Source: Albidovulum sp.
GTDB taxonomy: Bacteria; Pseudomonadota; Alphaproteobacteria; Rhodobacterales; Rhodobacteraceae
Direction of reading: 5' to 3'
DNA: 44,470 nucleotides
Assembly: GCF_008933605.1 (NCBI RefSeq)
Contig: NZ_WBUS01000013.1
Location: 1 to 44,470, forward strand
In this document: one piece after another, positions 1 through 39,144 of the stretch
Layout: each line of letters begins with the position of its first letter
Position numbering within the stretch: the first letter of the stretch is position 1
The notes under the pieces: model-generated
What the model saw: the letters and a program-made list of their open reading frames with translations, nothing else
Told to the model about the DNA's origin: nothing
The model's database searches: none
Position numbers and translations under genes: made by a program

Positions 1-65
1 CCCGACGACAGCTGGATCGGCCGCGTCATCGATCCCTTCGGCAGGCCGATCCAGCTGTCGTCGGG
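1..65. repeat. Perfect 22-bp inverted repeat with 21-nt loop at the window edge
   Basis: Bases 1-22 are the exact reverse complement of bases 44-65; bases 23-43 form the loop. The arms consist of fliI coding sequence. Read on the + strand, bases 1-50 encode PDDSWIGRVIDPFGRPI, a correct stretch of FliI, although fliI itself runs on the - strand. An 8-bp inverted repeat native to the gene (GATCGGCC at 15-22, GGCCGATC at 44-51) sits at the joint. This is the pattern expected if a 3' end snapped back on that short repeat and copied itself, so the structure is probably a fold-back artefact at a contig end. Confidence 0.9.
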
Positions 66-347
66 AGCGATTCCGACGGCGCCAAGGTTCTCGATCCGGT
101 CGCCGAGGCGAATACCGTCTGCCGGCTCGTCAGTCAGGATCGTGGCGCGGCCGTTGCCCAGCGCCACGATCTCTCCGCCGACATGGATTCCGTCGGCCAG
201 TCGCACCCGGTCCCCGAGCCGCCAGTCGTCGCCGATACCGCAAACGGTCAGGACACCGCGACCGACCTCGGTCACACGTGCAAGCCGGTGCATCGCCCTG
301 CAACCGCCGATCTCGGCCCTCAGCATCTCAAGCCCGAGGATCGCCAT
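1..347 (-). CDS. fliI: Flagellum-specific ATPase FliI, N-terminal fragment
   Basis: This is the start of the ATPase that energises and unlocks the flagellar type III export apparatus in the cytoplasm. The ATG at 347 has a strong ribosome site (AAAGGAGAT) just upstream. About 101 authentic residues can be read, covering the beta-barrel N-domain (GDRVRLADG, GNGRATILTDE) up to PDDSWIG at residues 95-101. Family members continue here with GRVIDPFGRPI. That continuation is present, but on the opposite strand (bases 1-50), because the last 65 bases fold back on themselves. The Walker A and B motifs therefore lie outside the window and the reading left of base 44 is not trustworthy. The gene is divergent from flgB across a 79-base gap with a CtrA-like box. 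Identity is inferred from the N-domain motifs and the flagellar context. Confidence 0.85.
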   Translation of the reverse strand, partial: MAILGLEMLRAEIGGCRAMHRLARVTEVGRGVLTVCGIGDDWRLGDRVRLADGIHVGGEIVALGNGRATILTDEPADGIRLGDRIENLGAVGIAPDDSWIGLPKGSMTRPIQLSS

Positions 348-426: not shown

Positions 427-816
427 ATGTTCGAGAAACCCGAGGTGCTGACGATCGCTTCGTCGCTTGCGGCTCACGCTGCGGCGCGGCAGTTCATCAT
501 TTCGCAGAACGTCGCCAATGCCGATACTCCCGGCTATCGCGCCCAGGATCTGCCCGATTTCGCCGAGATCTATCGTGCCCCGGACGCCGTGCCGCTCCGG
601 ACGACGCGCGCGGGCCATATCGCGGAGTCTGCGGTGCCGGTCGCGTTTGTCGCCTCGGACCGGCACGCGCCGGGGACGCCGTCACCCAACGGCAATTCCG
701 TGTCGCTCGAGGCCGAGATGGTGAAGGCCGCCGACGTGAAGCGCGAGCACGACCTTGCGTTGGCGATCTATGGCAAGTCGCTCGGCATTCTCCGGGCAAG
801 CCTCGGACGGCGCTGA
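427..816 (+). CDS. flgB: Flagellar proximal rod protein FlgB
   Basis: FlgB is a proximal rod subunit exported by the flagellar type III system and assembled in the periplasm on the MS ring. The 129-residue product has the family's N-terminal signature: a helix followed by SQNVANADTPGYRAQD at about residues 26-41, the conserved rod-protein ANADTPGY motif. Its C-terminal helix resembles other axial proteins. The ATG is preceded by GGAGGAG at about 10 bases. It is first in a tight rightward operon with flgC 12 bases downstream. The length is normal for FlgB and nothing is missing. Confidence 0.93.
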   Translation: MFEKPEVLTIASSLAAHAAARQFIISQNVANADTPGYRAQDLPDFAEIYRAPDAVPLRTTRAGHIAESAVPVAFVASDRHAPGTPSPNGNSVSLEAEMVKAADVKREHDLALAIYGKSLGILRASLGRR

Positions 817-828
817 GGGAGGTGAACG

Positions 829-1221
829 ATGAGCGACTTCACAACCTCCCTCTCGATCGCGGCGAGCGGCATGGAGGCACAGGCCATGCGCCTGCGCCAC
901 GTCTCGGAGAATATCGCGAACGCGGACACGCCGGGCTATCACCGCAAGGTCATACGGTTCGAGGCCGTGATGCAAGACGGCCGAAGGACCGGAGAGGTGC
1001 GGACCGGCGAGCCTGAGCTCGACCGGACGGAACTCGCGAAAGTGCTCGATCCGGGCAATCCGCTCGCGGACGAGAATGGCTACTACGACGGCTCGAATGT
1101 CGATCTGGTGGTCGAAATCGCTGACGCGCGCGAAGCGCAGCGCAGCTACGAGGCGAACCTCAGGATGTTCGATCAGGCCCGGCAGATGTCGGCAAGCCTG
1201 CTCGACCTCTTGCGCCGATAA
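829..1221 (+). CDS. flgC: Flagellar proximal rod protein FlgC
   Basis: FlgC is the second proximal rod subunit. The 130-residue protein carries the axial motif ENIANADTPGYHRK near residues 27-40. The C-terminal helix pattern (NVDLVVEIADAREAQRSYEANL, followed by a heptad-like end) mediates packing in the rod. The ribosome site GGGAGGTGA precedes the ATG by a few bases. It lies between flgB and fliE, the usual neighbours of rod assembly, and is very likely co-transcribed with both. Confidence 0.93.
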   Translation: MSDFTTSLSIAASGMEAQAMRLRHVSENIANADTPGYHRKVIRFEAVMQDGRRTGEVRTGEPELDRTELAKVLDPGNPLADENGYYDGSNVDLVVEIADAREAQRSYEANLRMFDQARQMSASLLDLLRR

Positions 1222-1239
1222 CCCAAGAGGAGGTCCAGA

Positions 1240-1530
1240 ATGGACATCAGAACCTCTTTTGCCGCGCAGACTTACGCGCAAGCCCGGTCGGCCACGCAAC
1301 CGTCGTCGAACACGGCGGACGCCGCGGGTGGCTTTGCACAGGCGCTGGGAGGTCTTGCGGATACCCTGAAGGCTGGCGAGGCGACGGCAAGGTCCGCGAT
1401 GACCGGGGGGGCCGACCCCCATGCTCTGGTCGAGGCGCTCGCCGCGAGCGAACTGGCAGTGGAGACCGCCGTGACGCTCCGCGACAAGGTCGTCGAAGCC
1501 TACCAGGAAATCCTCAGGATGCCGGTGTGA
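1240..1530 (+). CDS. fliE: Flagellar hook-basal body adaptor FliE
   Basis: FliE is the small adaptor that joins the MS ring and export gate to the base of the rod. The 96-residue product has the typical layout: a variable Ala/Ser-rich N-terminus, then a conserved C-terminal half (HALVEALAASELAVETAVTLR, then DKVVEAYQEILRMPV) that matches the family end at residues 65-96. AGAGGAGG lies before the ATG. Its stop codon overlaps the proposed GTG start of fliQ, which suggests translational coupling. Confidence 0.9.
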   Translation: MDIRTSFAAQTYAQARSATQPSSNTADAAGGFAQALGGLADTLKAGEATARSAMTGGADPHALVEALAASELAVETAVTLRDKVVEAYQEILRMPV

Positions 1531-1799
1531 CGATGGAAGAGGCGATCTTCTTCGACACCATGCGCCAGGGCCTGTGGATCTCCGTCCAGATATCGGCTCC
1601 GCTACTTCTGGTCGCGCTTGTCATGGGCGTGGCGATCGGCCTCCTGCAGGCGCTGACCTCGGTCCAGGAGATGACGCTGACCTTCGTGCCAAAGGTGGGT
1701 GCGATGATAGCGGTCTTCTGGGTTTCGATGACCTACATGTCGGCCGCGCTGGTGAGCTTCTTTCACGACCGGATCGTACCGATGATCGCGGGAATCTGA
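1527..1799 (+). CDS. fliQ: Flagellar export gate protein FliQ
   Basis: FliQ is one of the small membrane proteins of the FliPQR export gate. The 90-residue product has two hydrophobic segments, at about residues 17-39 and 54-75, separated by the conserved ALTSVQEMTLTFVPK loop. The GTG at 1527 is chosen because AGGA lies 7 bases upstream; the ATG at 1533 is an alternative giving 88 residues. Placement between fliE and flgF, away from fliP and fliR, is the mosaic arrangement expected in Rhodobacterales. Confidence 0.93.
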   Translation: MTMEEAIFFDTMRQGLWISVQISAPLLLVALVMGVAIGLLQALTSVQEMTLTFVPKVGAMIAVFWVSMTYMSAALVSFFHDRIVPMIAGI

Positions 1800-1802
1800 G
1801 CC

Positions 1803-2522
1803 ATGGAGAACGCGCTCTACACGACGCTCAACCGTCAGTCGGGGCTCATGGCCGAGATGCGGGCGGTGGCAAACAACATCGCCAACCTGTCCACCACCGG
1901 GTTTCGCAAGGAGGGTGTGATCTTCGCCGAGCACGTGGCCGACCTCGGGCGCGAGGAGCCTTCGCTTTCGATGGCCGCCGCGGAAGGTCGCCTGGTCAGT
2001 CTAGCGCAAGGCACTCTGGTCAAGACCGGGGGCACCTTCGACCTCGCCATCGAAGGTGAGGGGTTCTTCCAGATTGATACGCCCGAGGGCCCCCGGCTGA
2101 CCCGGGCGGGTGCCTTCACCTCGTCGGCAGAGGGTGAGCTGGTGACCGCGGACGGCCACCGGCTTCTCGATCTCGGGGGTGCGCCGGTCTTCGTGCCCCT
2201 TGACGCCGGCACCGTCGCGGTCGCGCCGGACGGCACGGTTTCGGCGGACGGTGCGCCGGTCGCACAGATCGGGCTTTTCCAGCCCGTTGATCCGACGGGC
2301 CTGCTGCATTCCGGGGGCACACGGCTCGAGGTCCGGGGAGGCATTGAACCGATTGAGAGCGGAGTAGTTTTTCAGGGATTTCTGGAAAACTCGAATGTAA
2401 ATTCAGTGACGGAAATCGCCCGGATGATCGAGGTGCAGCACGCCTACGAGATGGGCCAGGGATTCCTCGACAGCGAGGATCAGCGCATCCGGGCGGTGAT
2501 CCAGACACTCGGCAGAAGCTAA
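1803..2522 (+). CDS. flgF: Flagellar proximal rod protein FlgF
   Basis: FlgF is a rod subunit of the FlgE/FlgF/FlgG axial family. The 239-residue protein has the N-terminal motif VANNIANLSTTGFRK (about residues 21-35), a beta-rich centre with TFDLAIEGEGFFQI, and the C-terminal signature VNSVTEIARMIEVQHAYE, which packs as a coiled helix with the N-terminus. It starts 3 bases after fliQ and precedes flgG by 12 bases. Length and motifs favour FlgF over FlgE. The order flgF-flgG supports the same call. Confidence 0.92.
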   Translation: MENALYTTLNRQSGLMAEMRAVANNIANLSTTGFRKEGVIFAEHVADLGREEPSLSMAAAEGRLVSLAQGTLVKTGGTFDLAIEGEGFFQIDTPEGPRLTRAGAFTSSAEGELVTADGHRLLDLGGAPVFVPLDAGTVAVAPDGTVSADGAPVAQIGLFQPVDPTGLLHSGGTRLEVRGGIEPIESGVVFQGFLENSNVNSVTEIARMIEVQHAYEMGQGFLDSEDQRIRAVIQTLGRS

Positions 2523-2534
2523 GGAGCACTACCC

Positions 2535-3320
2535 ATGCGAGCCCTCCAGATTGCCGCGACCGGCATGAGCGCCCAGCAGATGAAGGTGGAGGTGATCTCC
2601 AACAACCTCGCCAACATGTCGACCACGGGCTATAACGCGCGACGGGCCGAATTTGCCGACCTGCACTACCAGCAGTTCACCCGCCCCGGCACGATCAATG
2701 CCAGCAATGGCACGGTGGTACCGACCGGTGTGCAACTCGGCCTCGGCGTTCGCCCTGCCGCAGTGACGATCAACGTCTCGCAGGGATCGCTTTCGGCGAC
2801 CGGGGGCGACCTCGATCTGGCCATCGAGGGCCTCGGCTATCTCGAGGTGACGCTGCCCTCGGGTCTTTCCGCCTATACCCGGGACGGGGCCCTGAAACGG
2901 TCCGCCGACGGGCTTGTCGTGACATCCGACGGTCATCAGGTGGCGCCAGGGATCACCATTCCCACGGATGCGCGGACGGTCTCGGTCAACGCCGCGGGCG
3001 AAGTTTATGCCTACTTCAGCGACCGGGTCCAGCCGGAACTCCTCGGCCAGTTCACCCTCGCCGGCTTCGTGAACGAAAAGGGGCTAGAGGCGATCGGCTC
3101 CAACCTCTTCCTCGAGACTTCGGCTTCTGGCCCCGCGACGATCGCTGCTCCAGGGGAAAACGGGGCCGGCACTCTGCGTCAGGGGTTCCTCGAGGACAGC
3201 TCCGTAGATGCGGTGCGCGAGATCACCGACCTGATCGAGGCGCAGCGCGGCTACGAACTGAATGCCAAGGTTATCACTGCGGCCGACCAGATGCTCTCTG
3301 CCACGACTCAGGTGCGATGA
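2535..3320 (+). CDS. flgG: Flagellar distal rod protein FlgG
   Basis: FlgG builds the distal rod that passes through the P and L rings. The 261-residue product matches the canonical length. It starts MRALQIAATGMSAQQ, carries VISNNLANMSTTGYNARRAE near residues 19-38, has the central GDLDLAIEGLGYLEV motif, and ends with SSVDAVREITDLIEAQRGYE and the closing ADQMLSATTQVR. AAGGAGC precedes the ATG. The stop overlaps the flgA start (ATGA type), indicating coupled translation. Confidence 0.95.
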   Translation: MRALQIAATGMSAQQMKVEVISNNLANMSTTGYNARRAEFADLHYQQFTRPGTINASNGTVVPTGVQLGLGVRPAAVTINVSQGSLSATGGDLDLAIEGLGYLEVTLPSGLSAYTRDGALKRSADGLVVTSDGHQVAPGITIPTDARTVSVNAAGEVYAYFSDRVQPELLGQFTLAGFVNEKGLEAIGSNLFLETSASGPATIAAPGENGAGTLRQGFLEDSSVDAVREITDLIEAQRGYELNAKVITAADQMLSATTQVR

Positions 3321-3745
3321 TGTGGTGGCTCGCGATCCCGCTCCTTCTGACGCTCGTGGACCCGGCGCGGGCGGAAACGCTCGTTGCGGTGCGTACGCTG
3401 AGGGCAGAGACCGTCCTCGGCCCCGACGATGTCGCCTTGGTCGCCGGAAGCATTCCGGGAACGGCCAGCAACACTGCCGAGGTTCTGGGGCGTGAGACGC
3501 GGGTGACGATCTATCAGGGCCGACCGATCCGGACGTCCGATCTCGGAGCGCCGGCGATCGTGGACCGGAACCAGGCCGTGGTCCTGAAGTATTCGGCCGG
3601 GCCGCTTGTCATCACCGCCGAGGGCCGCGCGCTCGGCCGGGGCGGTGCGGGCGATCGGGTCAAGGTGATGAACGTCGCCTCCCGCACGATCGTTCTCGGC
3701 GTGGTTGCCGACGACGGGTCGGTGCGCGTCGCGTCCAATCCATGA
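3317..3745 (+). CDS. flgA: P-ring assembly chaperone FlgA
   Basis: FlgA is a periplasmic protein that helps the P-ring protein FlgI assemble around the rod. The 142-residue product has a Sec signal peptide (about residues 1-20, ending ARAET), then a SAF-like domain with paired beta segments (TLVAVRTLRAETVLGPDDV; GRPIRTSDL). The C-terminal half has GAGDRVKVMNVASRTIV, typical of FlgA. It is short relative to enterobacterial FlgA but normal for alphaproteobacteria. It lies between flgG and flgH; flgI is not in the window. Confidence 0.88.
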   Translation: MMWWLAIPLLLTLVDPARAETLVAVRTLRAETVLGPDDVALVAGSIPGTASNTAEVLGRETRVTIYQGRPIRTSDLGAPAIVDRNQAVVLKYSAGPLVITAEGRALGRGGAGDRVKVMNVASRTIVLGVVADDGSVRVASNP

Positions 3746-3759
3746 GAGGGAGTTACGGG

Positions 3760-4485
3760 ATGAGATACGGCCTGGTGCTGGCACTTGCAGCCCTGCTTTG
3801 CGCGTGCCAGCGGCTTGAGGATGTGGGCAAGGCACCCGCCTTCACGCCGGTCGAGACCGGGGGCGAATTCTACGCGATGACCACACCGGGATTGCCCGAC
3901 ATGCAGCCGCAGGCCTACGCTGGCGACGAGGCGTCGCTGTGGACCGGCGGTCGCGGTTCCCTTCTGGGAGACCGGAGGGCGGGCCGGCGCGGGGACATCC
4001 TGACCGTGGTGATCGAGATCGACGACAAGGCCGAGATCTCGAACACCACCGGGCGGTCGCGCTCCGGTTCCGACAGCATGGGCATTCCCAACCTGCTGGG
4101 CATTCCGCAGCGGATCGACCGGAACATGCCCGCCGGCGCGAGCCTCGCGGACGCCTACGGCACCAGTTCCTCCTCCGACTACAAGGGCAACGGCAGCGTG
4201 GCGCGTAAGGAAAAGCTCACCCTTCGCGTGGCGGCCACGGTGGTCGAGACGCTGCCGAACGGTGTCCTCAGGATCCAGGGCTCGCAGGAGGTCAGGGTCA
4301 ACTTCGAGGTGCGTGAGCTGATCGTGCAGGGTTTCGTGCGGCCTGCCGACATCTCGCGCCAGAACGAGATCACATATGACAAGATCGCGGGCGCGCGCAT
4401 TTCCTACGGCGGCCGCGGGCAGATTACCGATGTCCAGCAGCCGCGCTACGGACAGCAGGTCGCCGACGTTCTCCTGCCCTTCTGA
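3760..4485 (+). CDS. flgH: Flagellar L-ring lipoprotein FlgH
   Basis: FlgH forms the outer-membrane L ring. The 241-residue product has a lipoprotein signal with lipobox LLCAC, so Cys15 would be lipidated. It then shows the family core: SLWTGGRGSLLGDRRAGRRG, DILTVVIEIDDKAEISNTT, and the C-terminal NFEVRELIVQGFVRPADIS with YGGRGQITDVQQPRYGQQ. The ATG at 3760 is preferred because GAGGGAG is well spaced before it. An in-frame ATG at 3742, overlapping the flgA stop, would add six residues before the signal peptide. Confidence 0.94.
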   Translation: MRYGLVLALAALLCACQRLEDVGKAPAFTPVETGGEFYAMTTPGLPDMQPQAYAGDEASLWTGGRGSLLGDRRAGRRGDILTVVIEIDDKAEISNTTGRSRSGSDSMGIPNLLGIPQRIDRNMPAGASLADAYGTSSSSDYKGNGSVARKEKLTLRVAATVVETLPNGVLRIQGSQEVRVNFEVRELIVQGFVRPADISRQNEITYDKIAGARISYGGRGQITDVQQPRYGQQVADVLLPF

Positions 4486-4493
4486 GGTGGCCC

Positions 4494-5009
4494 ATGCGCA
4501 AGCTCCTGCCTGTCCTCCTTGCGATTGCCGGGCTCGTCGGGGGGGGTGGCGCCGGCTATCTCCTGCGTCCCCCGGCGGCGGAGAACATGGCAGCCGAAAA
4601 ATGCGGAAATCCCGGCACCGAAACAACAGGGCACGAACGCGTCCTGCCAGACGACGGGGCGGAGACCGACACCGAGGCAGTGCCCGCGCATGAATACGTC
4701 AAGCTCAACAACCAGTTCGTCGTCCCGATTGTCGAGAATGGCGAGGTCGCCGCGCTCGTGATCCTGTCGATCACGCTCGAGGTCGCCGCCGGCGCAACCG
4801 AGCAGGTCTATGCCCGTGAGCCGAAGCTCCGCGACGTGTTTCTCCAGGTGCTGTTCGATCACGCCAACTCCGGCGGTTTCGGCGGCGCCTTCACGGAGTC
4901 GAACAACATGGATATGCTCCGGAATGCGCTCCTCGAGGTGGCGCGGAAATCGCTCGGTGCCGCGGTCGTCGACGTCCTGATCGTGGACATCGTTCGCCAG
5001 GACAGCTGA
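4494..5009 (+). CDS. FliL-like basal body-associated membrane protein
   Basis: This is a 171-residue protein with one N-terminal membrane anchor (about residues 5-25, ending GAGYLLRPP), an acidic Thr/Glu-rich linker, and a periplasmic FliL-like domain from about residue 65 (YVKLNNQFVVPIVENGEVAA, LVILSITLEVAAG) to the C-terminal LRNALLEVARKSLGAAVVDV segment. FliL proteins ring the stator units and stabilise them at high load. It closes the flgB operon and lies 8 bases after flgH. A second, clearer FliL is encoded at 14985-15470, so this is a paralogue or specialised variant. Homology is judged by pattern only. Confidence 0.7.
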   Translation: MRKLLPVLLAIAGLVGGGGAGYLLRPPAAENMAAEKCGNPGTETTGHERVLPDDGAETDTEAVPAHEYVKLNNQFVVPIVENGEVAALVILSITLEVAAGATEQVYAREPKLRDVFLQVLFDHANSGGFGGAFTESNNMDMLRNALLEVARKSLGAAVVDVLIVDIVRQDS

Positions 5010-5210
5010 GCCGCGCATCCGCGCCGAGGGCGCGAGCTTGATCGGCATCCTGCCGGCATCGCGCGATCGCTCCGAAAGGCATCCTCGGGCTGCTACACGC
5101 CCGGCGTCAACCGGGCCCGCTGCCCCGGGTGCAGCCTGGTTGAGGAAATCGTCGTGTCGCGCTGACCCCATCGCAGCCGTGGCGCCGGCGCCATCCTGCA
5201 TGGGCGCGGC
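5010..5210. other. Convergent intergenic spacer without a supported gene
   Basis: These 201 bases separate the ends of the rightward fliL-like gene and the leftward fliJ-like gene. Several G+C-rich self-complementary stretches occur (for example GGCGCCGGCGCC at about 5182-5193), which could end transcription from either side, but no stem followed by a T-run was found. No convincing reading frame was found. Confidence 0.4.
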
Positions 5211-5579
5211 TTATGTGCCCGGCCCTGGACGGGTCCGTACCGCCCTTGCCAACTGATCCAAGACGTCCCAGCGGCCGAAGGACGTTCGGGCGCGGTCCCC
5301 GGCGGTCGCTGTCTCACGCTGCGCCGTGTCAAGCCGTTCGGAAAGGCAAGTCCGACGCTCCTGAGACCATCGCGCGAAGCCTTCGAGGGTGCGATGCGTG
5401 GCCGGATCGGCGGTTTCGGCCGCCGTGCGGCGCGCCCCGGCGAGCGCGGCATCGAGTTGCCTCACCTCGGCCATGGCGGCCCGGACCCTTGCCTCCGCTG
5501 CAGCGAGCACGGAGAGATCGCGCTCCTTCCAGAGGGCAGCGAGACGCTGGAGGACGATCATTTGTCGCGGATCGGTCAT
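5211..5579 (-). CDS. Small coiled-coil protein after flhB, FliJ-like candidate
   Basis: The 122-residue product starts MTDPRQMIVLQRLAALWKE and is almost entirely charged and alpha-helical, with Ala/Glu/Arg heptads (SVLAAAEARVRAAMAEVRQL). It has no signal peptide or membrane segment. The ATG at 5579 overlaps the flhB stop (ATGA), so it is the last gene of the export operon. Size, helical make-up and position fit FliJ, the export ATPase stalk and chaperone-escort protein, which is otherwise not seen near fliI in the visible part. Sequence motifs are too weak for certainty, and another flagellar chaperone is possible. Confidence 0.6.
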   Translation of the reverse strand: MTDPRQMIVLQRLAALWKERDLSVLAAAEARVRAAMAEVRQLDAALAGARRTAAETADPATHRTLEGFARWSQERRTCLSERLDTAQRETATAGDRARTSFGRWDVLDQLARAVRTRPGPGT

Positions 5580-6661
5580 CGGCCGTGCCGTGCGCCGGCG
5601 CGACGACGCATGGCCTCCGCAAAACGGATCGCGGCGGCCACGGGCGCATAGTGGTCCGGCAGGATCTCCTGCCCGATCCGCACTGTCGCGTGGATTGCCC
5701 GCGCCGTGGGCGGATCCGACCGGACCGGCACGCCGGCCGTCGCCGCGGCCGCGCGAATGCGCGCGGCGACCTCGTCCACTCCCTTGGCGACGCAGACGGG
5801 GGCCCGACGGCTCGCGCGATCCCAGCGGAGTGCGACGGCGAAGTGCGTGGGGTTCACTATGACGACGTCGGCCCTGGGCACATCTGCGAGCATGCGGTTG
5901 GTGGCGATGGCCTCGGCCCGCTGCCGGCGCTGGCCCTTGATGTGGGGATCGCCCTCGGATTCCTTGAACTCCTCCATCAACTCCTGTCGCGACATCCGGT
6001 TTCGCCGCAGATGCTCCTGCCATTGCCAGAGGTAGTCGACGGCGCCGATCACGGCGCTGATCGCGAGCACGAGAAGCAGGAACGCGACGACAAGGCGGCC
6101 GAGTTCCGCAGCCAGCGGCCCGGCGTCAAGGCTCTGGGCGAGGAGCGTGCGGGGAAGGTGCCGCGCAAGAAACCAGCCGAGCATGGCGGAGACAAGTGAG
6201 AGTTTGGCCGCGCTCTTGGCGAACTCGAAGACGCCCTCGCGCCCGAACTTCCGGCGGGCATTGCCGATCGGGTCGATCCGTTCGAGCCGCGGCATGAGAC
6301 GCTCCGGCGCGGCCACGATGGCCCGCTGCGCCAGAAGGCTGGCAAGAACGGCGATCGCCGGGAAGAGGAAGAACGGCAACACCGGGAGAAGCATCGCCGC
6401 GATCGCCCCGCCGGCGCCCATGCCCTCGCCGCGAAGGATGAGTTCCGAGGCGCCCTCGGGTCGGGCGAGCAGCGCCATCCCGGCGTCACCGAAACCGCGC
6501 AGCGCTGGCGCGCCGGTTGCAAGCGCGGCGACGAGCAGCCCGCCATAGGCGGCGGCGAGCCCGATCTCGGCAGAGCGGACGACCTCGCCGCGTTTTCGCG
6601 CCTCGTCGACCCGTTTCTGTGTCGGCTCGTGTTCCTTCTCGCTGTCGTCGTCGATGCTCAC
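5576..6661 (-). CDS. flhB: Flagellar export switch protein FlhB
   Basis: FlhB is the membrane protein of the export apparatus that switches substrate class after autocleavage. The 361-residue product has a charged N-terminus (EKEHEPTQKRVDEARKRGEV), four hydrophobic segments between about residues 30 and 210, the linker MSRQELMEEFKESEGDPHIK, and the cleavage motif NPTH in DVVIVNPTHFAVALRWD near residues 262-278. All expected parts are present. Four-base overlaps with fliR upstream and the fliJ-like gene downstream imply co-translation. Confidence 0.96.
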   Translation of the reverse strand: MSIDDDSEKEHEPTQKRVDEARKRGEVVRSAEIGLAAAYGGLLVAALATGAPALRGFGDAGMALLARPEGASELILRGEGMGAGGAIAAMLLPVLPFFLFPAIAVLASLLAQRAIVAAPERLMPRLERIDPIGNARRKFGREGVFEFAKSAAKLSLVSAMLGWFLARHLPRTLLAQSLDAGPLAAELGRLVVAFLLLVLAISAVIGAVDYLWQWQEHLRRNRMSRQELMEEFKESEGDPHIKGQRRQRAEAIATNRMLADVPRADVVIVNPTHFAVALRWDRASRRAPVCVAKGVDEVAARIRAAAATAGVPVRSDPPTARAIHATVRIGQEILPDHYAPVAAAIRFAEAMRRRAGARHGR

Positions 6662-15515: not shown

Positions 15516-15530
15516 CTAACCGATTGTTAA
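15516..15530. promoter_or_regulatory. Candidate CtrA box between fliL and fliF
   Basis: The + strand reads CTAA-N7-TTAA and the - strand TTAA-N7-TTAG, one mismatch from TTAA-N7-TTAA. It lies 61 bases before the fliF GTG and 46 bases before the fliL ATG, a position suited to driving both divergent operons. Together with the similar box at 389-405 it suggests shared control of the locus by CtrA. Confidence 0.55.
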
Positions 15531-15590
15531 GCGCAATGGGCGAAGCATCGGTTCGACGAAGGGCAGAAGCCCGCTTTCCGGAGATGTGTC

Positions 15591-17198
15591 GTGCGAGAGC
15601 TGACAGGCGTCTGGCAGAACCTCGAGCCCCGCCGCCGCGTGATCGTGGCCTTGGCGACAGTGGCGATGTTCGCGGCCGTGTTTGCGCTGGCCAAGATGGC
15701 AACAAGACCATCGATGGCGCTGCTCTACGCCGGCCTTGATGGGCCACGCGCCGGCGAGGTCCTGACCGCGCTCGATCAGCAAGCCGTCCGTTACGAGGTT
15801 CGCGGCACGTCGATCTATGTCGAGTCGCCCCGGCGGGACGGGCTGCGGATGGCGCTTGCCGCCGAGGGCCTGCCGGCCAACAGCGGTGCAGGGTACGAGC
15901 TCCTCGATTCGCTCTCGGGGTTCGGCACAACCTCGCAGATGTTCGATGCGGCCTATCTGCGGGCCAAGGAGGGTGAGCTTTCCAGGACGATATCGGCCCT
16001 GCCGCAGGTGCGCAGCGCCCGTGTTCACATCGCCGATACGCGTGCCCAAGGTCTCAGAGCGCAGGCAAAGCCATCGGCATCGGTCGCCGTGACAACGGCG
16101 AGCGGAGGCATTTCGCCCGCCCATGCCAAGGCGCTGAAGTTCCTCGTCGCCTCGGCGGTGGCGGGACTGTCGCCCGAGGATGTCTCGGTGATCGACGGCG
16201 AGGGCGCCCTCGTCGATGCCGGTGAAGAGGCGGCAGGCGCGAGCGGCGATGACCGGGCCGCGGCGCTGCGGCGCAACGTCGAGCGCCTGCTCGAGGCGCG
16301 TGTCGGTTACGGCAACGCGGTGGTGGAAGTGGCGGTGGAAACGGTGACGGAGCGGGAGGCCGTTACGGAACGCAAGTTCGATCCCGACAGCCGGGTCGCA
16401 ATCTCGACCGACACCGAAGAACGCAGCAACTCGGCAAATGACAGCGGGGCGAATGGCGTCACGGTTGCGTCGAACCTGCCCGCCGGGGCCGCCGGCGGTT
16501 CGGGCAACTCATCGCAGAGCCAGGCCAGCGAGACCCGGGAGCGGACGAACTTCGAGGTGTCGGAAACGACGCGCGAGATACTGCGTGCCCCCGGCGCGAT
16601 CCGGCGGCTCACCGTCGCGGTGCTCGTGGATGGTGTCAGCGTGACGGCGGCGGATGGTACCGCGACGGTCGAGCCGAGGACCGAGGACGAGCTTTCGGCG
16701 CTGCGGGATCTGGTGGCCGCGGCCGTCGGCTTCGACGAGGCGCGCGGCGATCTCATCACGCTCAAGTCGATGTCATTCGAGCCGCTCGCGGCATCCGCGG
16801 ATGGCCCCGGCCTGTCCTTCATCGAACGGCTTGGACTGGACATCATGAGTCTCGCCCAGCTTCTCGTCCTGGGGATCGTGAGCCTTGCGCTCGGGCTCTT
16901 CGTCCTGAGGCCCATCCTTGCCTCGCGGGCAGCGGGCGCAGACGTGAATGGTGCGGCGCGGCCGGCGCTCGGCGCACCCCTTGGTGCCCCGCCGGCTCTC
17001 AGCGGCGTGATCGACGACGGCGAATTCCTCCCGTCCAATCTGCCCGACATTGCCGATCGCATCGCGAGAAGCGGCACGAAGGACGCCCCGGCCGCCGATC
17101 CGGTGGAACGTCTCCGCCGGATGATCGCCGACCGCCAGCAGGAAACGGCCGAGATCCTGCGCGGATGGATGGAAGATCCCGAGGAGGAGCGCGCGTGA
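15591..17198 (+). CDS. fliF: Flagellar MS-ring protein FliF
   Basis: FliF oligomerises in the inner membrane to form the MS ring, the first structure of the basal body. The 535-residue protein has a first membrane segment (about residues 18-36), the YscJ/FliF ring-building domain (SMALLYAGLDGPRAGEVLTA; GYELLDSLSGFGTTSQMFDA; SRTISALPQVRSARVHIA), a Ser/Asn-rich periplasmic middle, and a second membrane segment near 423-443 (LAQLLVLGIVSLALGLFVLR). The C-terminal tail, RLRRMIADRQQETAEILRGW, is the FliG-binding type. The start is GTG with GGAG about 7 bases upstream. The stop overlaps the fliH start. Confidence 0.95.
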   Translation: MRELTGVWQNLEPRRRVIVALATVAMFAAVFALAKMATRPSMALLYAGLDGPRAGEVLTALDQQAVRYEVRGTSIYVESPRRDGLRMALAAEGLPANSGAGYELLDSLSGFGTTSQMFDAAYLRAKEGELSRTISALPQVRSARVHIADTRAQGLRAQAKPSASVAVTTASGGISPAHAKALKFLVASAVAGLSPEDVSVIDGEGALVDAGEEAAGASGDDRAAALRRNVERLLEARVGYGNAVVEVAVETVTEREAVTERKFDPDSRVAISTDTEERSNSANDSGANGVTVASNLPAGAAGGSGNSSQSQASETRERTNFEVSETTREILRAPGAIRRLTVAVLVDGVSVTAADGTATVEPRTEDELSALRDLVAAAVGFDEARGDLITLKSMSFEPLAASADGPGLSFIERLGLDIMSLAQLLVLGIVSLALGLFVLRPILASRAAGADVNGAARPALGAPLGAPPALSGVIDDGEFLPSNLPDIADRIARSGTKDAPAADPVERLRRMIADRQQETAEILRGWMEDPEEERA

Positions 17199-38370: not shown

Positions 38371-39057
38371 ATGGCGAACGTGAAGAAGATCCTGCTTGTC
38401 GATGATGACGAGGACCTGCGCGAGGCGTTGGCCGAACAGCTCGTCTCCACCGAAGATTTCGATGTCTTCGAGGCCGCGACCGGCGTCGAGGGAATCGAAA
38501 AGGTGAAGGCGGGAATCTATGATCTCGTGATCCTCGACGTGGGGCTTCCGGACACCGATGGCCGTGAGCTTTGCAAGAAGATGCGCAAGCAGGGCGTCAA
38601 GTGCCCGATCCTGATGCTGACGGGCCACGATGGCGACGCGGACACGATCCTTGGCCTTGACGCGGGTGCCAACGACTATGTGACGAAACCCTTCAAGTTC
38701 CCGGTCCTGCTCGCCCGCATCCGGGCGCAGTTGCGCACCCACGAGCAGTCGGAGGACGCGGTGTTCCAGCTTGGGCCCTATACGTTCAAGCCGGCGATGA
38801 AGATGCTGATCGACGAGCGCGACCGGAAGATCCGGCTCACCGAGAAGGAGACGAACATCCTGAAGTTCCTCTACCGCGCGACCGAGGGCGTGGTGCCGCG
38901 CGATGTGCTCCTGCATGAGGTCTGGGGCTACAATGCCGGTGTCACGACCCACACCCTGGAGACGCATATCTACCGCTTGCGCCAGAAAATCGAACCCGAT
39001 CCGTCAAACGCCCGCCTTCTTGTGACCGAATCCGGGGGCTATCGTCTGGTCGCATAG
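38371..39057 (+). CDS. cenR: OmpR-family response regulator, CenR-like
   Basis: The 228-residue regulator has a receiver domain (acidic pocket VDDDED, phospho-acceptor D56 in LVILDVGLPDTDGR, switch residues in MLTGHDGD and YVTKPF) and a winged-helix DNA-binding domain (IRLTEKETNILKFLYRATEG; TTHTLETHIYRLRQKIEPDP). Its sequence closely recalls CenR, the essential envelope regulator of Caulobacter, rather than CtrA. Its kinase partner is not encoded nearby. The ATG follows GGAGGAAA. It is monocistronic, with a strong terminator behind it. Confidence 0.85.
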   Translation: MANVKKILLVDDDEDLREALAEQLVSTEDFDVFEAATGVEGIEKVKAGIYDLVILDVGLPDTDGRELCKKMRKQGVKCPILMLTGHDGDADTILGLDAGANDYVTKPFKFPVLLARIRAQLRTHEQSEDAVFQLGPYTFKPAMKMLIDERDRKIRLTEKETNILKFLYRATEGVVPRDVLLHEVWGYNAGVTTHTLETHIYRLRQKIEPDPSNARLLVTESGGYRLVA

Positions 39058-39115
39058 GCTCCCCCCTATCCCCTCGCCGCACCGGGGTCATGATGCGGCA
39101 TCCTCCCTGTTGGAC

Positions 39116-39144
39116 TGGCCGGGCCTTGTGCCCGGCCATTTTTT
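39116..39144 (+). terminator. Rho-independent terminator of cenR
   Basis: TGGCCGGGC (39116-39124) pairs perfectly with GCCCGGCCA (39130-39138) around a CTTGT loop and is followed by six T. It lies 59 bases after the cenR stop. Confidence 0.93.

Follow-up and report, generated by a model that had tools for sequence, protein, structure and literature searches.

Flagellar genes at the start of the contig

The window analysed here, a 44,470-nucleotide stretch of DNA from Albidovulum sp., is the entire contig C217 (G000:C217:1-44470) of an assembly with 3,656,294 bases in 299 contigs, so base 1 coincides with the end of a contig rather than with an arbitrary cut. At this end lies the 5' part of the flagellar gene fliI, which starts with an ATG at base 347 on the minus strand and reads as native FliI through codon 101. 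Beyond it, an ordinary flagellar cluster occupies positions 427-6661, where flgB, flgC, fliE, fliQ, flgF, flgG, flgA, flgH, and flhB were assigned with NCBIfam, some of these matches being under the curated cut-off; the NCBIfam scan gave no match for the frame at 4494-5006. Between the native part of fliI and the edge of the contig, the sequence folds back perfectly on itself. We found that the outermost 65 bases almost certainly represent a false mirror-image joint at a broken contig end, and that another contig opens with what appears to be the remainder of fliI.

Anatomy of the fold-back

The two arms of the fold-back are each 22 nucleotides (nt) long and 100% complementary, and they enclose a loop of 21 nt. 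The first-pass annotation had described the arms as exact reverse complements, which was borne out; it had extended the fold-back over bases 1-66, of which 1-65 stands, while base 66 lies outside. The pair is the sole inverted repeat of at least 12 nt listed in bases 1-500. As single-stranded DNA the structure has a folding energy of -33.8 kcal/mol (z-score -9.7), which none of 200 shuffled sequences equalled. The features of this region are as follows.

1-22, plus strand: outer arm, encoding PDDSWIG of FliI in gene sense but on the wrong strand (translation; exact reverse complement of 44-65).
15-22, plus strand: left copy of the native fliI inverted repeat of 7-8 base pairs, pairing with 44-51 (sequence; native limit judged from 16 relatives).
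23-43, plus strand: loop of 21 nt, native FliI in gene sense (RVIDPFG), inverted with respect to the minus-strand gene.
44-65, plus strand: inner arm, consisting of native fliI antisense, with the false junction somewhere in 44-51.
45-347, minus strand: codons 1-101 of fliI, its genuine 5' part (MAILG...PDDSWIG); the remainder appears to lie on contig C201.
3-44, minus strand: false extension of the fliI frame, LPKGSMTRPIQLSS, 14 residues, non-FliI.

Translation confirmed that FliI reads correctly on the plus strand although fliI itself lies on the minus strand: bases 1-51 of the plus strand encode native FliI in gene sense, PDDSWIGRVIDPFGRPI, followed by QLSS. On the minus strand, native FliI continues up to ...APDDSWIG and then gives way to the non-native residues LPKGSMTRPIQLSS, which reach the edge. 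The loop is thus inverted relative to the incoming minus-strand fliI. The joint coincides with a short inverted repeat, (G)ATCGGCC...GGCCGAT(C), in which bases 15/16-22 pair with 44-50/51. This repeat is native to fliI, as had been proposed, while the proposed length of 8 base pairs is an upper value: the repeat measures 7 or 8 base pairs because base 51 is unassignable, since ATC may be a native Ile codon, and base 15 belongs to the repeat only if base 51 is native.

Relatives carry uninterrupted fliI across the site

The native course of fliI at this position was evaluated in relatives of the same genus. From 22 genus genomes, including this one, the comparison took in the 16 relatives whose FliI match was strong (457.4-494.6 bits) and left out the remaining five of the 21 relatives, with weaker matches (best 210 to 224 bits). 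A scan of the contig collection with the N-terminal piece of FliI revealed no relative. All 16 read GR[VI].D..G...DG in this segment, that is, native fliI runs across the fold-back site. None of them has the 22-nt hairpin, and inverted repeats within the 90-96 nt surrounding the motif reach 9 nt at most. The first-pass annotation had named the same structure in a related genome as an observation that would speak for a genuine fold-back, and it was looked for in these 16 genomes and not found. After RPI, each of the 16 has Asp-Gly, in contrast to Gln-Leu (QLSS) in the window; base 52 is where the window departs from the Asp codon that all 16 relatives have there.

The probable other half of fliI

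When this genome was searched with the FliI_clade3 model, the top match fell at the beginning of contig C201, where bases 47-949 cover model positions 116-418; the fliI piece of the window was not among the five matches of that search. When scanned as separate proteins, C201:50-979 (L003) matched FliI_clade3 positions 117-418 with an E-value of 1.3e-121, and the window piece matched positions 2-92 with an E-value of 5.3e-6, the latter match extending some ten residues into the false tail. Judged from these matches, C217 and C201 look like carriers of the two halves of one fliI. In 15 of the 16 relatives, 23 codons separate the Ile of the RPI equivalent from the RRRLG-like motif at which the homology of C201 begins, and the distance to the P-loop GSG is identical in all 16. 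Therefore, about 20-70 nt would be missing between C217 and C201, a range that depends on whether the first 49 bases of C201 are genuine.

These 49 bases of C201 (L003) show no evident similarity to the FliI of the relatives and contain an in-frame stop. No clear source for them was found elsewhere in the genome (matches of 14-29 nt, best E-value 0.034), and the start of C201 has no terminal arm of at least 8 nt within 300 nt. A second chimera at this place was considered and rejected on these grounds and because none of the 25 longest of the 31 inverted pairs in the first 2449 bases involves bases 1-49. The segment is possibly another bad contig end.

Fold-backs recur at other contig ends

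The survey of other contig ends in this assembly took in C1-C80 and, from C100 to C295, every fifth contig, which makes 120 of 299. After 29 all-N contigs had been dropped and only the start had been used for 27 contigs that were cut at 20 kilobases, 155 ends from 91 contigs were available. Perfect terminal inverted repeats of 17-44 nt are present at eight of these 155 other ends (about 5%), namely on C215 (L157), C175 (L153), C38 (L083), C24 (L069), C200 (L136), C64 (L109), C230 (L139), and C74 (L119), and all eight arms start at the exact first base of the end. Together with the 22 nt of the window, the arm lengths are 17, 19, 20, 22, 23, 25, 25, 25, and 44 nt, while arms of 12-16 nt occur at none of the 155 ends. 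Random interior pseudo-ends, treated alike, reached an arm of at least 17 nt in one case out of 9100 (Fisher p 4.6e-14), which places the fold-back of the window beyond chance. Across the 91 contigs (1,220,994 bases) there are 13 perfect inverted repeats with an arm of at least 17 nt and a gap of at most 300, of which eight lie at distance 0 from an end.

One of these ends was also compared with relatives. The fold-back at the 5' end of C74 interrupts a gene that has 219 open codons counted from the contig end. The C74 query was matched in 13 of the 21 relatives, with frames of 377-654 amino acids (best match of 12 relatives) and of 234 amino acids in one. For six relatives, we examined the 251 bases that surround the boundary: in four of them the alignment starts at VAAxARLEQA or a like sequence, where the arm ends, and in the other two it continues over five arm residues with one identity. 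In all six, the frame extends upstream with sequence that is absent from C74.

Two more of the 13 perfect inverted repeats overlap each other in C77 (L122), at positions 15520-15609 of 15631; their arms measure 29 and 30 nt, they lie 45 and 22 nt from the end, and the pair is perhaps the result of repeated snap-back. A partner contig with an intact loop was sought for three ends (the window, C38, and C200) and none was found, the end of C38 having a partial match on C288 (40 nt, 83%, E-value 8.2e-5).

Origin of the joint

These observations lead us to conclude, with high confidence, that bases 1-65 arose in vitro as a snap-back, an interrupted palindrome, which the assembler appended to the end of C217. 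The palindrome is perfect, terminal, and has an arm that begins at base 1; its inner part is native, up to RPI of FliI, while its outer part is non-native; a short natural inverted repeat (7-8 base pairs) lies at the joint; and similar structures recur at unrelated places in the data set, with their non-native character checked at one of the eight. The starting molecule would have been a single strand with fliI sequence whose 3' end lay at the native repeat GGCCGAT(C) or close to it, and this end may have folded back over 21 nt onto the upstream complement (G)ATCGGCC. Extension of this 3' end by a polymerase would then have copied the strand's own upstream sequence, presumably during a library or amplification step. 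The resulting read would overlap the true contig by one arm and add the loop and the other arm at a coverage gap, where the assembler may have taken it up. Under this interpretation, fliI is presumably intact in the cell and continues, after a gap, at the start of C201, the joining of the two halves being suggested by the sequence comparison. The varied arm lengths are more readily explained by individual reads than by one fixed assembly word length; an origin in a de Bruijn graph with a single word length, in which the arm would equal k-1, is unsupported, as the arms vary from 17 to 44 nt.

Similar artefacts have been described in sequencing reads. According to the available text of PMC3946424, interrupted palindromes in Illumina libraries come from hairpin self-priming of single-stranded DNA at short natural inverted repeats. 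The structure described there resembles ours in having a hairpin at a natural repeat, a 3' end extended on its own 5' part, a native inner portion, and an arm that runs to the end, and differs in that our arms are 17-44 nt long and lie on contig ends. The portion of PMC10908179 on which we draw deals with sonicated human capture libraries and reports chimeric reads that arise at natural inverted repeats, explained by a 'PDSM' model; in such reads the segment between the repeats is inverted with respect to the reference, as on the minus strand here. For multiple displacement amplification (MDA), the available part of PMC1855051 describes priming by displaced 3' ends, with 2-21 nt of complementarity at most junctions, which generates inverted joints with an intervening deletion, a likeness to our case. 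MDA chimeras are mostly inverted according to that text, which excludes self-priming hairpins as a major MDA route, so an origin in MDA is less favoured. Foldback artefacts, in which a read doubles back on itself as here, also appear in the consulted part of PMC12870357, which deals with long-read data. Among the titles and abstract openings found on contig ends and assemblies, fold-back read artefacts are named, and none concerns fold-backs at short-read contig ends.

Several points weigh against the snap-back interpretation. The chimera is known from the assembled sequence alone, not from individual reads, and no other contig was found to hold the true path from WIG through RPI: a query of 200 bases matched C217 alone, and a 17-base pattern also matched C60 once, the C60 sequence being different outside the pattern. 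C74 is the only one of the eight ends compared with relatives, and some of the eight may be natural hairpins, in which case 8/155 overstates the rate of artefacts. For example, the end of C230 reads AAAGCGGCC...GGCCGCTTT and looks like a natural terminator; about 120 nt further into the contig lies a frame that reads MNARLHIVGGGMAGSEAAW. In the assemblies of two relatives, G012 and G008, no arm of at least 17 nt was present at 29 ends of the former or at 16 starts of the latter (16 of 20 contigs unmasked in each), samples that are too small to differ clearly from 8/155. In addition, the available text of PMC3946424 gives terminal palindromes of generally at most 3 base pairs in libraries of contemporary DNA.

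In the G008 sample, the starts of C5 and C15 (L188, L192) share the same first 100 bases and an identical 13-nt hairpin, probably a real dispersed repeat where the assembly broke.

Alternative explanations

A real inverted duplication, or a covalently closed hairpin end that is telomere-like or results from fold-back repair of a broken end, would truly interrupt fliI; we regard this as very improbable. Such an end or repair would leave perfect 22-nt arms with a 21-nt loop, and the contig has nothing beyond base 1. However, the missing part of fliI opens C201, which does not agree with the end of a replicon, and the last 301 bases of the window contain no inverted repeat of at least 12 nt. Furthermore, eight further ends among 155 are too many for the real termini of one genome, and the structure is missing from every relative compared. 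The first-pass annotation had offered a real inverted duplication beside a snap-back artefact; the contig end, the fliI part on C201, the 16 relatives without the structure, and the recurrence at 8/155 ends strongly favour the artefact.

It is just as improbable that a strong natural hairpin stopped sequencing or assembly, so that the sequence is genuine and contigs simply tend to end at hairpins. Inverted repeats are indeed enriched at contig ends, and at least one of the eight, that of C230, resembles a natural terminator, but neither strand of the window is native throughout, as the residues after RPI demonstrate. A blocking hairpin would, moreover, be expected to end the contig short of or inside its stem, whereas all eight other arms start at the first base. 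The native reading in the relatives led us to reject this explanation for the window; it might apply to other ends, except C74.

Slighter still is the chance that a fraction of the cells or DNA molecules carries real fold-back inverted duplications at broken ends, produced in vivo by snap-back replication at short inverted repeats and recorded at several contig ends. A functional hairpin at 1-66, such as an RNA structure or attenuator that regulates fliI or flgB, has a negligible probability: the fold is strong (z-score -9.7), but it lies inside the fliI coding sequence about 280 nt past the start codon, no Rfam match at this place attains the gathering score, the 16 relatives lack it, and its arm is copied coding sequence.

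Consequences for annotation

With the snap-back interpretation, the genome itself has no such fold-back, and the structure represents neither a hairpin regulator nor a DNA terminus nor a truncated fliI. Annotation from C217 would yield a false truncated FliI of 115 amino acids with 14 wrong C-terminal residues, and might be taken as a sign of a non-motile strain or of a hairpin regulator. The earlier warning that, if the joint is an artefact, either annotation would be wrong agrees with the remainder of the gene on C201 and with the absence of the hairpin from the relatives. Fold-backs occur at about 5% of the examined ends; therefore, strong hairpins and truncated genes at the contig ends of this assembly should be distrusted.

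Elsewhere in the window, positions 39070-39143 on the plus strand match the SorX small RNA (Rfam RF02784, 73.3 bits, gathering score 46.6). The match lies immediately 3' of a response-regulator-like frame at 38371-39057, which was named from its sequence. In Rhodobacter, SorX is derived from the 3' untranslated region of a response-regulator-like gene. The SorX of the window looks like a normal orthologue.
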